A DNA stretch of 20,224 bases from a virus: positions 1-20,224 of IMG/VR virus record IMGVR_UViG_3300008448_000872. One strand, 5' to 3'. The notes beneath the pieces were generated by a model. It had not been told where the DNA came from. It ran no database searches and saw only the letters and a program-made list of their open reading frames with translations. A program made the translations under genes and the position numbers. Below, in pieces: positions 16,230-19,548 of the stretch; the first letter of the stretch is position 1; each line of letters starts with the position of its first letter.

Positions 16230-17044
16230 TGGGCAAAAAGGTAGCATTTTTATCTCTTAATTACCAATCATTTGAAAATGAAGAACTGATGGGGCGGTTC
16301 TTCTGTGAAGAACACAAGGATAAATACAACTTGTATATTCATAACAAAGAACCAATCGTTGGTAGTATATTTGAAAAATATTGCATACCCGAAAGCTACA
16401 AAGTAGAAACAGAATGGGGCAAGTACTCTTTGGTACTTGCTACCATTCGTTTAATGAAGTATGCTCTTCAAGATTCAGATAATGAGCGGTTTGTTTTGAT
16501 CAGCAACTCACACGCACCGCTTTATTCTATTGATGTTGTATGCGAAAAGATTTGGCGGGATTACCCCATTTTATCTTTTGATCAATCAATAGTACGATCA
16601 AGAGATCCAGAGAAAATCACTAAGTATCGCTATGATACTATTTTAAATCCTGTCAAAAAACACCTTGCGCCTTTTCAATTACATTCCGCCATGTTCGTTG
16701 CTCAGTGGTTTATTTGCAATCGTAAAGATGCTGATTTTTTTGTAAATAATGAAGCAAGGTTAAGACCTTGGTTCAATTTAGAGAAGAGGAATAATGCAGA
16801 CGAATTGTACTTTTCGTTATTGGCCAATCATTATGGATTGCCGAATCAAATCAAAACAAACTGTTATGTCGGCTGGCATTTAAAAACAAAAAAACAGTGG
16901 GTAAAAGAAGGTAAGCGTCTTACGCCTAGAACAATAGACAAACTCTCAAACAAAATAGTTGACATTCTGCGTAAAAGAGGTATGCTGTTTGCGCGTAAGA
17001 TTTGCGCCGAAACACAATTAGATATTGATTATTTACTACAATGA
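16229..17044 (+). CDS. GT14-like glycosyltransferase (core-2/I-branching family fold)
   Basis: A 271-residue protein with the order of GT14 enzymes. There is an N-terminal strand KVAFLSLNY, then KVETEWGKYSLVLATIRLMKYAL (59-80) matching the family W-G-x-x-S-L-V-x-A helix, then RFVLISNSHAPLYSI (87-101), equivalent to the family LSGxDYPL loop. Later NADELYFSLLANHYG (~192-206) resembles the E-x-F/Y-F segment with the catalytic acidic residue. GT14 members transfer GlcNAc, xylose or other sugars. In phages they probably decorate host or phage surface structures. No membrane anchor is present, so it would act in the cytoplasm. With the two GT-B proteins at 1063-4106 it makes three glycosyltransferase genes in the window. 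Confidence 0.75.
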   Translation: MGKKVAFLSLNYQSFENEELMGRFFCEEHKDKYNLYIHNKEPIVGSIFEKYCIPESYKVETEWGKYSLVLATIRLMKYALQDSDNERFVLISNSHAPLYSIDVVCEKIWRDYPILSFDQSIVRSRDPEKITKYRYDTILNPVKKHLAPFQLHSAMFVAQWFICNRKDADFFVNNEARLRPWFNLEKRNNADELYFSLLANHYGLPNQIKTNCYVGWHLKTKKQWVKEGKRLTPRTIDKLSNKIVDILRKRGMLFARKICAETQLDIDYLLQ

Positions 17045-17607
17045 ATGTTGTAACTTCACAGTGCAAGACCACACTTCTTTTAAATAATGCTTGGCAACCA
17101 ATCAATGCGATTACTGCCAGAGCAGCATTCACTCACTTGCTGAAGGGTCATATTACAGCTTTAGATAAAAACAATAATGTGTTTCACTCTTTAGAAAGTT
17201 GGAACCGCAGTGCAGAATTATATGAAGATCAACCTGTATTGAGGAGCGCAAAAGGAGTTTGGCCAATTCCTACGGTTATCATCGTCACTAGTAAATTCTT
17301 TCGCCGCCCGAAGAAAAAGAAACTCACTACATTTGAGATGGCGAAGGTTTACAATTACACCTGCCAGTATTGTTTAAATAGATTTGCTTTGCCTGATTTA
17401 ACTATCGACCATATTTATCCCAAAAGTAAAGGTGGAGATGATGAGCATAGCAATCGTACACTAGCATGTAAACCATGCAACACTCGAAAAGGTAGCAAGT
17501 TTCCATTTTTTAATATTAAAAATGAAACAGTTTCTGCGCCAGAAATTCCTGCGCTAATGATTAATGCTCCTAAAATTAGAAAAGAGTGGAAGAATTTTAT
17601 ATATTAA
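17041..17607 (+). CDS. HNH endonuclease
   Basis: A 188-residue protein. The N-terminal LLLNNAWQPINAITARAAF (12-30) plus LLKGHITALD matches the leader domain common in one McrA-like HNH group (LNasyePLn...). The HNH core is complete: zinc cysteines C108 and C111 (CQYC) and C143 and C146 (CKPC), D123-H124 in TIDHIYPKSKGG, N138 and N147, and K150. It would nick or cut double-stranded DNA, in phages often as a packaging-associated or homing nuclease. Its ATG overlaps the stop of the GT14-like gene by four bases, so it is in the same operon. Nothing suggests it is degraded. Confidence 0.88.
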   Translation: MNVVTSQCKTTLLLNNAWQPINAITARAAFTHLLKGHITALDKNNNVFHSLESWNRSAELYEDQPVLRSAKGVWPIPTVIIVTSKFFRRPKKKKLTTFEMAKVYNYTCQYCLNRFALPDLTIDHIYPKSKGGDDEHSNRTLACKPCNTRKGSKFPFFNIKNETVSAPEIPALMINAPKIRKEWKNFIY

Positions 17608-17610
17608 GAT

Positions 17611-17880
17611 ATGGCAATTCTACTATCAGTGCTTAAATCATTAGAGCTATTTCTATCTTTAAAAAACAAACTATTCTATTATGAAATACGAACGAAATCA
17701 ATCGAAAGACAAAAAGACATCCTTGCAGAAATTAAAAAACTGCGGGATGCTGGCGACAGTGCTTCTGCCGATGCTGCTGACCTCTTGCGTTCCGAACTCA
17801 AACGAGAAAGAGAGGAACTTACGCATTTATCAACCTTCTACGCTCCGCTTGCAAAAAAACCAACAGATTCAAACCCTTGA
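17611..17880 (+). CDS. possible inner-membrane spanin (Rz-like) / coiled-coil protein
   Basis: An 89-residue protein three bases after the HNH stop. Residues 2-19 (AILLSVLKSLELFLSL) are hydrophobic but interrupted by K9 and E12, so a membrane anchor is marginal. Residues 27-75 are a charged helix with coiled-coil character (IERQKDILAEIKKLRD, LLRSELKREREEL). The following gene starts inside it in the +1 frame and encodes a lipoprotein, exactly the layout of Rz/Rz1 spanin pairs that fuse inner and outer membranes in Gram-negative lysis. The weak anchor is the main doubt. It could instead be an unrelated small coiled-coil protein. Confidence 0.6.
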   Translation: MAILLSVLKSLELFLSLKNKLFYYEIRTKSIERQKDILAEIKKLRDAGDSASADAADLLRSELKREREELTHLSTFYAPLAKKPTDSNP

Positions 17881-17965
17881 TGGTTTGTATACTCCTCAAG
17901 TCGATGAAGTGTGGCATTCAGACCTACGCTACAGAAAACTTGAGAACGAATTAAATTATAATTGA
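17681..17965 (+). CDS. possible outer-membrane spanin lipoprotein (Rz1-like), nested start
   Basis: A 94-residue protein whose first 200 bases overlap the upstream coiled-coil gene in the +1 frame. A positively charged front (KDKKTSLQKLK) leads to a hydrophobic core LATVLLPMLLTSC with a lipobox L33-T34-S35-C36, so the mature chain would begin at Cys36 and be lipid-anchored in the outer membrane. The mature part is short and ends LDGLYTPQVDEVWHSDLRYR. An in-frame ATG at 17747 would give a shorter signal peptide and is an alternative start. The lipobox in the alternate frame of a coiled-coil gene is the strongest sign of a spanin pair. No holin or endolysin is seen beside it. Confidence 0.65.
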   Translation: MKYERNQSKDKKTSLQKLKNCGMLATVLLPMLLTSCVPNSNEKERNLRIYQPSTLRLQKNQQIQTLDGLYTPQVDEVWHSDLRYRKLENELNYN

Positions 17966-17989
17966 AAATAATAGAAAAAAGTGTAAAAT
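17962..17989 (+). promoter_or_regulatory. sigma70-like promoter upstream of the tRNA leader
   Basis: TTGAAA (17962-17967), a 16-base spacer and TAAAAT (17984-17989). The -35 box overlaps the stop codon of the spanin-like lipoprotein. The expected start of transcription is about 17996, on the second of two ATG codons (17993 and 17996). The bases AAAAGTGTAAAAT before and within the -10 box recur on the minus strand at the left edge of the window. Confidence 0.55.
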
Positions 17990-17992
17990 AAA

Positions 17993-18058
17993 ATGATGAA
18001 GTCAATAGCTACAGCAAATTATTATCTCGTTCCATCGACAAGATGGAATGCTGTCTAA
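17993..18058 (+). CDS. tiny ORF, possible leader peptide (20-21 residues)
   Basis: Two consecutive ATG codons open a frame that closes at TAA 18056-18058. Read from the second ATG it encodes 20 residues, MKSIATANYY then LVPSTRWNAV. Its codons include ATG, AAG, TCA, TAT-TAT, CCA, and AGA next to TGG. These are codons for Met, Lys, Ser, Tyr, Pro, Arg and Trp, the seven amino acids served by the tRNA genes that follow. No Shine-Dalgarno is present, and the predicted transcript would start at the ATG itself. It ends two bases before a strand that competes with the downstream terminator. Translation is unproven. Confidence 0.35.
   Translation: MMKSIATANYYLVPSTRWNAV
18011..18054 (+). promoter_or_regulatory. 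nested hairpin in the leader RNA
   Basis: ACAGCA (18011-18016) pairs with TGCTGT (18049-18054), and inside it TTCCATC (18030-18036) pairs with GATGGAA (18042-18048) around the loop GACAA. The two stems stack without a gap on the 3' side, with 13 unpaired bases on the 5' side. The CAGCA strand can alternatively pair with TGCTG at 18059-18063. It overlaps the codons for Tyr, Pro, Arg and Trp of the tiny ORF. Confidence 0.5.
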
Positions 18059-18059
18059 T

Positions 18060-18093
18060 GCTGGGCGAAAAGTTCTGAGATTTTTTACCCAGC
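18060..18093 (+). promoter_or_regulatory. antiterminator-like alternative stem
   Basis: GCTGGG (18060-18065) is complementary to CCCAGC (18088-18093), which is also the left arm of the terminator stem immediately downstream. The two stems cannot form together, so this is a candidate switch between read-through and termination. Confidence 0.45.
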
Positions 18094-18113
18094 CAAAAAG
18101 GCTGGGTTTTTTT
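18087..18113 (+). terminator. strong rho-independent terminator
   Basis: ACCCAGCC (18087-18094), loop AAAAA, GGCTGGGT (18100-18107) and a run of T to 18113. Eight pairs, GC-rich, directly followed by the T-run. It can end the rightward operon that finishes at 17965 and the short transcript from the 17962 promoter. Confidence 0.88.
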
Positions 18114-18141
18114 GTATATATTAATAGGCTCATGACGAGGG

Positions 18142-18201
18142 AGTGCCTGAAACGCCCAAGCTGCACTGCCCGATGTGCGAACATAAAGAATATGTTGGGC
18201 G
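18142..18201 (+). ncRNA. candidate pseudoknotted RNA between terminator and tRNA promoter
   Basis: AGTGC (18142-18146) pairs with GCACT (18163-18167). The loop between them contains CGCCCAA (18153-18159), which is complementary to TTGGGCG (18195-18201), giving an H-type pseudoknot. AACATA (18180-18185) and TATGTT (18191-18196) form a hairpin in the connecting stretch, and GCAC/GTGC (18163-18166 and 18175-18178) is an alternative to the first stem. No ORF or known RNA family was recognised here. It lies just before the -35 box of the tRNA promoter. Confidence 0.35.
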
Positions 18202-18210
18202 AAAAAATCG

Positions 18211-18238
18211 TTGACAAAAACAGAACTAGTGCTATGAT
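18211..18238 (+). promoter_or_regulatory. strong sigma70 promoter of the tRNA array
   Basis: Consensus TTGACA (18211-18216), a 16-base spacer and TATGAT (18233-18238). Transcription is expected to begin near 18245, exactly where a long hairpin starts, about 85 bases before the first tRNA. Confidence 0.8.
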
Positions 18239-18328: not shown

Positions 18329-18402
18329 CGCGGGATAGAGTATCGGTTACTCAGAAGTCTCATAAGCTTCGTAGGTGGGTTCGACTCCCACTCCCGCAAC
18401 CA
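18329..18402 (+). tRNA. tRNA-Met(CAU), initiator-like (tRNA-fMet)
   Basis: Seventy-four bases with encoded CCA. The anticodon loop CTCATAA gives CAU. Acceptor arm CGCGGGA pairs with TCCCGCA except for the first pair, C1-A72, the mismatch that marks bacterial initiator tRNAs. D-stem GAGTA/TACTC has the purine11-pyrimidine24 pair of initiators. T-arm is GTGGG-TTCGACT-CCCAC. Unlike the usual initiator, the anticodon stem (GAAGT/GCTTC) lacks the three consecutive G-C pairs. First tRNA of the array, six bases before tRNA-Tyr. Confidence 0.88.
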
Positions 18403-18408
18403 ATTTTA

Positions 18409-18499
18409 GCGTAGACGGCAACGATGGTGGTGTTGCGGCAGACTGTAAATCTGCTCCCGAAGGGTAACAATGGCAGTTCGAATCTGTCTCTACGCACCA
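18409..18499 (+). tRNA. tRNA-Tyr(GUA)
   Basis: Ninety-one bases with encoded CCA. Acceptor GCGTAGA/TCTACGC is perfect. D-stem GCAAC/GTTGC. Anticodon stem GCAGA/TCTGC around CTGTAAA gives GUA. The long variable arm (CCC-GAA-GGG) is as expected for a class II bacterial tRNA-Tyr. T-arm is GGCAG-TTCGAAT-CTGTC. One base separates it from tRNA-Pro. Confidence 0.95.
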
Positions 18500-18500
18500 A

Positions 18501-18572
18501 CGGGTAAAGGCCGACTGGCGAGGCGCTTGCTTTGGGAGCAAGTTTAGTTGAGTTCGATTCTCAATTACCCGA
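18501..18572 (+). tRNA. tRNA-Pro(UGG)
   Basis: Acceptor CGGGTAA/TTACCCG, anticodon stem CTTGC/GCAAG around TTTGGGA giving UGG, T-arm TTGAG-TTCGATT-CTCAA, discriminator A. The D-arm GCC/GGC has three pairs. It is the only tRNA of the array without an encoded CCA, so the host must add it. Confidence 0.92.
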
Positions 18573-18585
18573 TTGATTTTCTAAT

Positions 18586-18663
18586 GGGGCGGTATCGGAA
18601 CTGCCTTCTAAGCAGTAGTACCGTAATGGATCAATGCTGGTTCGAATCCAGTCCGTCTCACCA
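18586..18663 (+). tRNA. tRNA-Arg(UCU)-like, apparently lacking a D-arm
   Basis: Acceptor GGGGCGG (18586-18592) pairs with CCGTCTC (18653-18659) with two G-T pairs. Discriminator A and CCA follow. Anticodon stem ACTGC/GCAGT (18600-18604 and 18612-18616) holds the loop CTTCTAA, typical of Arg(UCU). T-arm GCTGG-TTCGAAT-CCAGT. Only seven bases (TATCGGA) lie between acceptor and anticodon stems, so there is no room for a D-arm, while the variable region is 19 bases. A competing stem GGCGGT/ACTGCC (18588-18593 and 18600-18605) is possible. It may be a degenerate or unusual tRNA. Confidence 0.65.
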
Positions 18664-19023
18664 ATCTTTTTCTAAAAAATGTCTCGTTCGATGGCACATA
18701 CAACATAGCAAAGCGCATTTTTGAACTTCTTGTATACATGATTTTAATGAAATTTTTCTCATTCTTTCCCAAACCATGTCTTTTTTAGATGGATCATTAT
18801 GATGAAAGTCAAAAAGATAATAGTTTTTATCATTTGCTTCTAAATTGCAATCTTCACATTTACTATTTTTCAGCCTTATCATATCTAATTTACGTTTTAT
18901 CCATCTGCCGCCACAATAAATATTAAAACACTTCTTACAATAAGAACTAGTTTTATTTTTTTTACCCTTACTATAAAAATCACTATCTTCTTTTTCTTCT
19001 TTACAAAAACTACAAATTTTCAT
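18658..19023 (-). CDS. HNH homing-endonuclease-like protein, antisense inside the tRNA array
   Basis: A 121-residue protein read against the tRNAs. Cysteine pairs C4/C7 (CSFC), C29/C32 (CKKC), C56/C59 (CEDC) and C107/C110 (CCMC), plus H74-H75-N76 in FDFHHNDPSKKD and H111/H115 (CHRTRH), give a zinc-bound HNH core with an extra N-terminal zinc finger. Small HNH proteins of this kind are common free-standing homing endonucleases in phage genomes. Its stop codon TGA (18660-18658) and preceding Trp codon are the complement of the last six bases of the Arg-like tRNA (TCACCA), so the gene abuts the tRNA 3' end exactly. It splits the array into four upstream and three downstream tRNAs. A TATAAT stands five bases before its ATG and there is no Shine-Dalgarno. 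Confidence 0.82.
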   Translation of the reverse strand: MKICSFCKEEKEDSDFYSKGKKNKTSSYCKKCFNIYCGGRWIKRKLDMIRLKNSKCEDCNLEANDKNYYLFDFHHNDPSKKDMVWERMRKISLKSCIQEVQKCALLCCMCHRTRHFLEKDW

Positions 19024-19028
19024 ATTAT

Positions 19029-19058
19029 ATTATAAGTGTTTAGTCGTAAACATTCTAA
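19029..19058 (-). promoter_or_regulatory. candidate promoter of the antisense HNH gene
   Basis: On the minus strand, TTAGAA (19058-19053), an 18-base spacer and TATAAT (19034-19029), with a second overlapping TATAAT just after it. The ATG at 19023 follows within five bases, so a transcript from here would have almost no leader. Confidence 0.4.
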
Positions 19059-19068
19059 TCATTTTTTT

Positions 19069-19144
19069 AATAGGCCATGTTCCAAGGTGGCGACCGAGAC
19101 TCCAAATCTTGGTGTGTAGAGTTCGATTCTCTAGCCTGTTGCCA
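19069..19144 (+). tRNA. tRNA-Trp(CCA)
   Basis: Acceptor AATAGGC/GCCTGTT, anticodon stem CGAGA/TCTTG with loop CTCCAAA giving CCA, T-arm TAGAG-TTCGATT-CTCTA, discriminator G, encoded CCA. The D-stem is weak (GTT/GAC with a G-T pair), but the D-loop contains GG. First tRNA after the antisense HNH gene. Confidence 0.88.
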
Positions 19145-19149
19145 ATTTA

Positions 19150-19239
19150 GGGTGTGTGGCAGAGCGGTTTATTGCACTTGTCTTGAAAACAAGAGAACAT
19201 GTGAGTGTTCCGTGGGTTCAAATCCTACCGCACCCGCCA
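19150..19239 (+). tRNA. tRNA-Ser(UGA)
   Basis: Ninety bases with encoded CCA. Acceptor GGGTGTG/CGCACCC, anticodon stem CTTGT/ACAAG with loop CTTGAAA giving UGA, long variable arm (GAACATGTGAGTGTTC) as in class II tRNA-Ser, T-arm GTGGG-TTCAAAT-CCTAC, discriminator G as in tRNA-Ser. Confidence 0.95.
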
Positions 19240-19245
19240 TTTAAT

Positions 19246-19320
19246 GGAGGTGAAGCTTTAATGGTGAAGCATGCGGCTTTTAACCGCAAGAATGGGGATC
19301 GTTACCCCACACCTCTACCA
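19246..19320 (+). tRNA. tRNA-Lys(UUU)
   Basis: Acceptor GGAGGTG/CACCTCT (first pair G-T), D-stem GCTT/AAGC, anticodon stem TGCGG/CCGCA around CTTTTAA giving UUU, T-stem TGGGG/CCCCA, encoded CCA. The T-loop ATCGTTA is non-standard: A54 and T58 replace the usual T54 and A58. Last tRNA of the array. Confidence 0.88.
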
Positions 19321-19332
19321 ATTTTTCCCTGC

Positions 19333-19358
19333 CACTGCATCATTTCAGAGATGCAGTG
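19333..19358 (+). other. hairpin after the last tRNA (processing site or weak terminator)
   Basis: CACTGCATC (19333-19341) and GATGCAGTG (19350-19358) form nine perfect pairs around the loop ATTTCAGA. The downstream TATTCTTT is not a clean T-run, so a terminator role is doubtful. It separates tRNA-Lys from the hairpin-rich region that follows. Confidence 0.6.
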
Positions 19359-19361
19359 TAT

Positions 19362-19548
19362 TCTTTGGATATAAAGCGGAATCGCCATCCGATGAGACCA
19401 AGGACAATCCGACACAAATTAAAGTAAGTCTGGGGTAGCGACCAGATTGGAATAATCACTGTGATTTATCGGTAGTGGGGAAACCTGCCTTGAGGTATAC
19501 AAGGATAGCTCCAGCCCTGAGTGAGACGTAAGCCGTAATGCTATGGGC
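19362..19548 (+). ncRNA. candidate structured noncoding RNA downstream of the tRNAs
   Basis: About 190 bases without a convincing ORF but dense in potential stems: TCTTTGG/CCAAGGA (19362-19368 and 19398-19404) enclosing CGGA/TCCG (19377-19380 and 19388-19391), AGTCTGG/CCAGATT (19427-19433 and 19442-19448), AATCA/TGATT (19454-19458 and 19462-19466), GGTAG/CTGCC (19471-19475 and 19485-19489), CCTTG/CAAGG (19488-19492 and 19500-19504) and ATAGC/GCTAT (19505-19509 and 19540-19544). It is more GC-rich than nearby coding DNA. It would be carried on the tRNA transcript. It matches no RNA family I can name. Phage T4 also has stable non-tRNA RNAs (C and D) in its tRNA cluster. Confidence 0.45.

Follow-up and report, generated by a model that had tools for sequence, protein, structure and literature searches.

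A probable ribosome-mediated transcription attenuator ahead of a phage tRNA array

For decades there has been debate over the reason for tRNA arrays in phages, and in one proposal the arrays take the place of host tRNAs whose destruction serves as a defence (PMC10264068). The stretch of DNA analysed here (the window) comes from an uncultured tailed phage and is a fragment of 20224 bp (G000). It raises the question of what a short ORF followed by a strong terminator does directly before such an array. The minus strand of the window carries lambda-like tail genes, namely those of a minor tail protein L and a tail assembly protein. On the plus strand, an HNH gene is followed by nested spanin-like ORFs, the leader element and the tRNA array (Table 1). 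The nested ORFs (17611-17880 and 17681-17965, plus strand), the second with a lipobox, have the layout of an i-spanin/o-spanin pair; neither PHROGs nor Pfam gave a family for them, and they are called spanin-like by layout. Six of the seven tRNAs were located by ARAGORN and tRNA-Arg(TCT) (18586-18660) by Rfam. The array, possibly cut by the contig end, may continue beyond the fragment. A stretch related to the HNH gene inserted in it sits in the array of relative L007 (8298-8788). In the arrays of L107 (L120) and L111 (L122) a tRNA with the anticodon CUA (amber) was called by ARAGORN, possibly a suppressor tRNA.

Table 1. Features of the leader element and its surroundings (window positions unless a relative is named)
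Feature	Position	Strand	Remark
HNH gene	17041-17607	+	upstream of leader
-10 part of probable phage late promoter, GTGTAAAAT	17981-17989	+	ends 6 nt before start codon
Leader ORF, 20 codons, MKSIATANYYLVPSTRWNAV*	17996-18058	+	starts at predicted +1 (leaderless)
Segment 1, GCTaCAGCA in ORF (anti-antiterminator)	18008-18016	+	pairs with TGCTGGGC (18059-18066) in leader MFE
ORF-internal hairpin, TTCCATC/GATGGAA	18030-18048	+	
Segment 2, TGCTGGGC, antiterminator arm	18059-18066	+	directly after stop codon
Antiterminator hairpin, GCTGGG.GAAAAGTT / GATTTTTT.CCCAGC	18060-18093	+	mutually exclusive with terminator
Intrinsic terminator, ACCCAGCC aaaaa GGCTGGGT TTTTTT	18087-18114	+	hairpin 18087-18107 plus T run
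Conserved RNA motif, AGGCTCATGACGAGGGAGTGCCTGAAACGCCCAAG	18126-18160	+	downstream of terminator
Sigma70-type promoter of tRNA array, TTGACA-16-TATGAT	18211-18238	+	
tRNA array	18329-19320	+	Met, Tyr, Pro, Arg(TCT), (HNH gene, minus strand), Trp, Ser, Lys
HNH homing-type endonuclease gene	18658-19023	-	inserted within tRNA array, opposite strand
5' element, GTCCGARAGGGAGATTRGGGTGARATAAACCTACTAA	L002 6587-6690; L006 6816-6895; L049 6810-6890		also in L007

The element spans 17981-18114 and consists of a promoter-like -10, a leaderless ORF with its stop codon at 18056-18058, a post-stop strand and a strong terminator. The sequence-only reading had taken it for an attenuator-like leader in which the strand after the stop codon could choose between partners; its coordinates and pairings hold. 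GCTGGG (18060-18065) is complementary to CCCAGC (18088-18093) in the left arm of the terminator, as that reading had it, and the antiterminator is longer than was noted by eight more pairs. The complete hairpin of 6 + 8 pairs has a free energy of -15.7 kcal/mol, against -6.3 +/- 2.1 kcal/mol for shuffles (p = 0.001). CAGCA (18012-18016) is complementary to TGCTG (18059-18063), and in the leader MFE state segment 1 holds TGCTGGGC while the terminator forms. The fold of the window leader beat all 200 dinucleotide shuffles (z -4.16). Against synonymous-codon shuffles, the ORF hairpins of 7 lineages were stronger (Fisher 5e-8), with p = 0.056 for the window by itself. A cmscan of all Rfam families returned only tRNAs at the gathering score and no leader match; weak Rfam sRNA matches on the terminator were set aside as chance.

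Relatives were collected via the HNH gene, the spanin gene and DNA patterns. In 16 phage lineages, forming 8 independent groups by peptide and arm sequence, the tRNA array is preceded by the same anatomy with covarying arms, and this comparison strongly supports the attenuator layout proposed for the window. The shared order is a late-type promoter, an ORF, its stop, a complementary strand near the stop, an intrinsic terminator and the tRNA genes. Leader ORFs have 17-22 codons and start at +1 or a few nt away (somewhat further in L049), and the terminator lies ∼27-48 nt past the stop codon. Several relatives sharing the neighbouring HNH gene have no leader (L002-L005, L013, L046 and others). 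The idea that the leader simply accompanies the HNH gene was rejected, L105-L110 having been found by motif and not by HNH.

Alignment across relatives, suggested earlier as a check, gave competing stems whose pairings are kept and whose sequences are rewritten. The arms read CAGGAGC../..GCTCCTG in L053 and GGGTTGTTTT/AAAACGGCCC in L107, with further unrelated versions in L110 (GGGAGTCT/AGACTCCC) and L054 (GGGTCAAA/TTTGGCCC). Each arm matches its own partner even where the two leaders differ, as in L053 (CAGGAGCTTTTGTTGTA/TACAATGAAGGCTCCTG) and L049 (GGGCTAAAAAA/TTTTTTGGCCC), and own arms pair better than swapped arms (p = 6.5e-4). The antiterminator exceeded shuffles with a Fisher value of 1e-7 over 7 lineages and with p <= 0.011 in each of six later leaders. 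A blind detector was run on 85 distinct terminators, including 11 from regions of the four cultured phages T4, S-PM2, Sf14 and CRW-SP2; 19 of its 20 matches were these leaders and one was a chance site. A plain late terminator that insulates the tRNA array, with the upstream arm copies as decayed duplicates, would suit an array that has its own promoter. The arms co-vary across groups, however, and their pairing runs past the terminator arm into pairing of the A-run with the U-run, and such a terminator is very improbable.

The third pairing partner was less uniform. Pairing of the ORF with the post-stop strand is comparable in L007, L008, L107, L109 and L110, and in L107 the helix runs to about 19 pairs. 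Sequestering of the antiterminator arm by the upstream strand is clear in the window, L107, L110 and L008. The three-way choice put forward for the window therefore agrees with its MFE and with relatives, most clearly L107 and L110, but the pairing is marginal overall (swap test p = 0.047).

Conservation of the frame was found in part: a short ORF stands at the same place in all 16 lineages, but the peptides are almost wholly different between groups. This bears on a second explanation, in which the element is a small late gene whose ORF encodes a functional micropeptide, the terminator ends its transcript and the complementary post-stop strand is incidental. Late-type promoter, ORF and terminator do make a complete transcription unit, and peptide sequence is common within subgroups (e.g. 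MRY... and MGKYS...RQA). Between groups, however, the pairings persist where the peptides do not, and terminators elsewhere are without such a strand; a micropeptide gene is considered distinctly unlikely.

The attenuator reading was then examined with an energy model. The bases under a ribosome were masked at each codon of each leader, and free energies were compared between a state with the terminator forced and a state in which its right arm was not yet available. For 16 of 16 lineages the model has the terminator favoured far more by a ribosome at the stop codon than by one stalled in mid-ORF, and for 16 of 16 it has the antiterminator favoured by a stall earlier in the ORF. The mean shift over the 16 lineages was 9.8 kcal/mol (range 5.1 to 15.6), given as equilibrium energies with no kinetics. 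For 67 control terminators of the same loci it was 0.7 +/- 2.5 kcal/mol (leaders against controls, each group represented by one member, p = 4e-9). In the ribosome-free state the model goes back to termination for the window and some half of the lineages, because the ORF strand holds the antiterminator arm; L006, L014, L049 and L054 have no clear preference for termination in this state.

An RNA switch for a protein or small molecule, either a riboswitch or antitermination that depends on a protein, would also account for the ORF hairpins and the strongly structured leaders and would leave the ORF a secondary or incidental part; a second conserved RNA motif does lie nearby. The leaders, however, have no Rfam family match and no conserved aptamer-like core among them. 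In all 16 lineages the ORF starts at or near +1 and stops just before the antiterminator arm, which indicates the ribosome as the reader, and a switch of this kind is very unlikely.

The second motif is a near-invariant element of 35 nt, AGGYTCANGACGAGGGANTRCCTGAAANGCCCAAG, with a covarying stem, and stands beside the tRNA array of at least 12 phage contigs. Its core pattern was found in 14 stretches in 2.9 million viral contigs, 14 of 14 beside tRNA arrays. The stem AGGY:RCCT of four pairs is formed with C-G in 6 cases and U-A in 4, and none is broken. The covariance model (CM) match in the window spans 18111-18180 with 69 bits; no Rfam match to the motif was found. The single motif match in the bacterial and archaeal genome collection had no tRNAs nearby (L114) and was taken as chance. 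A conserved post-terminator ORF (MTRECLKRP...; window, L011, L017) was also considered, and the RNA motif was preferred because unrelated phages share an almost unchanged DNA core and the stem shows covariation. The motif occurs with leaders and without them (L108, L113), and in L019 it follows the first tRNA; it is therefore a separate module.

Two further RNA elements were observed in these loci. A conserved multibranched RNA with the closing stem UUUUCCCUGC/GUGGGGAAAA lies inside or after the tRNA arrays of the window (19322-19480) and L002-L006; it has 12 predicted pairs with compensatory changes and gave no match in Rfam or cultured phages. The other is GTCCGARAGGGAGATTRGGGTGARATAAACCTACTAA, a 5' element of tRNA transcripts common to L002-L007 and L049, where it follows the array promoter immediately. 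Searches of cultured phages by megablast, blastn and tblastn found nothing closely related to the leader region, the second motif or the 3' RNA.

The time at which the attenuator would act was addressed through the promoters. The window had been read as having a promoter at 17962-17989 that starts RNA at an ATG. The -10-like TAAAAT (17984-17989) lies within GTGTAAAAT and places the predicted +1 at the ATG at 17996, but the -35 at 17962 is not kept by relatives. What relatives keep before their leaders is GTGTAWRAT, 6 nt and the start codon. In the clade of the window, GTGTAWDAW followed by 5-7 nt and a start codon precedes both leaders and late genes, the latter being those of minor tail protein L, a spanin-like lipoprotein and structural-like ORFs in relatives; the tail L gene of the window itself has a similar site. 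In a second clade (L053, L105-L110) T4-like (C/T)TAAATA late sites stand before the leaders. With an ATG as the start codon (17981-17996 in the window, and in relatives), the GTGTAWDAW arrangement has the look of a late promoter that would give leaderless late mRNAs in the clade. The leader promoters resemble late-gene promoters and are probably active as such.

The array's own promoter, noted earlier at 18211, was located as a sigma70-type sequence, and relatives have a comparable promoter at the array start. Both promoter types would be used. As the leader promoters are of late type and the array has a sigma70-type promoter, what the attenuator most likely controls is late read-through, added to an early transcription from the sigma70-type promoter. 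Because this promoter lies downstream of the terminator, read-through may carry little weight.

Taken together, the element is likely to be a ribosome-mediated transcription attenuator by which the entry of late transcription into the phage tRNA array is gated. In the proposed mechanism a leaderless RNA would be made from the late promoter, and a ribosome would load on the 5' AUG and trail the RNA polymerase. A ribosome that reached the stop codon would cover 18059-18066; no antiterminator could form, the terminator would fold and transcription would end. When a charged tRNA was short, the ribosome would stall on an earlier codon, leaving the post-stop strand free to pair with the left arm of the terminator. 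With the antiterminator formed, the polymerase would continue into the tRNA genes. If no ribosome loaded, the ORF strand may hold the post-stop strand in the window and about half of the lineages, and transcription would end.

The signal was sought in the leader amino acids. The peptide of the window had been noted to cover all seven amino acids served by the array. All are present, but the match to the tRNA set is just suggestive: the chance of K, S, Y, P, R and W all falling among 19 random residues is 1.5%, a post-hoc figure, and the diversity of the peptide is ordinary (13 of 20, p = 0.45). Against its own array the window leader gave p = 0.02 for coverage and p = 0.007 for coverage minus extras, in the case that prompted the idea. 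Arrays were taken from the contigs and own and swapped leader-array matches were compared by permutation. Own matches were better, with p = 0.006 when lineages were compared and 0.04 when the 8 independent groups were; the effect was driven by the window, L106, L107 and L109 and was absent in other lineages.

Leader amino-acid diversity was higher than in windows of phage proteins (Fisher 2e-6 over groups, 1e-4 with the worst member per group). L054 has 19 different amino acids in 20 residues, L049 18 in 21, L053 17 in 19, L014 17 in 21 and L105 17; besides the window, L019, L106 and L109 are not unusually diverse. In a comparison with the few chance short ORFs found in these loci, the difference was weak (p = 0.016; 0.09 by worst member). 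A W four codons before the stop as a trpL-like sensing codon was rejected, there being no W in L017, L019, L053, L107 and L110. Deliberate sampling of amino acids by the leaders is a good, if unproven, reading. Since any of about a dozen codons can stall the ribosome and the leaders hold many amino acids, what is sensed would most likely be a shortage of many aminoacyl-tRNAs, for example after depletion of host tRNAs; on this evidence the signal is most likely a general lack of charged tRNA. We give roughly even weight to the stronger proposal of a pan-aminoacyl-tRNA sensor. There the leader would be selected to hold the largest possible number of different amino acids, or the set of its own array (L106, L107, L109 and the window), so that a lack of nearly any charged tRNA, for instance through host anticodon nucleases, would switch on the phage tRNA genes late in infection.

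Among known systems, T-box riboswitches also let the state of tRNA set the choice between terminator and antiterminator. They bind tRNA directly, whereas here a ribosome would read the shortage, and a T-box was ruled out by cmscan of Rfam, which gave no T-box match up to E = 5. The arrays of T4, S-PM2, Shigella phage Sf14 and Salmonella phage CRW-SP2 likewise group their tRNA genes, in some cases with homing endonuclease genes in between; no such leader was found in the examined stretches of these four phages. The open-access papers searched gave no earlier description of phage tRNA genes controlled by a leader attenuator.

The closest likeness is to the trp, his, ilv and thr attenuators of enterobacteria. 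These share with the element a short promoter-proximal ORF whose stop lies just before the antiterminator arm; as in amino-acid operon attenuators, the antiterminator and intrinsic terminator exclude each other, and in some lineages an upstream strand may hold the antiterminator arm. Classical attenuators carry runs of one regulatory codon, whereas these leaders have no such run and hold many different amino acids. The element differs also in preceding tRNA genes, in phages, and in its leaderless or near-leaderless start. The theory of trp and his attenuators stresses regulatory codons (PMC1183508). The features of the trp/his class found or computed here are a 5' short ORF, presumably translated, a terminator before the controlled genes and an exclusive antiterminator whose arm a ribosome at the stop codon would mask; by layout, as far as can be read from DNA, the element would work like the trp and his attenuators. 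If so, an attenuator opening the array only on a stall in translation would be a built-in sensor of host tRNA destruction and would put the replacement proposal within reach of a direct test. Attenuation of the trp type would then also extend to tRNA genes, its leader sampling many amino acids together.
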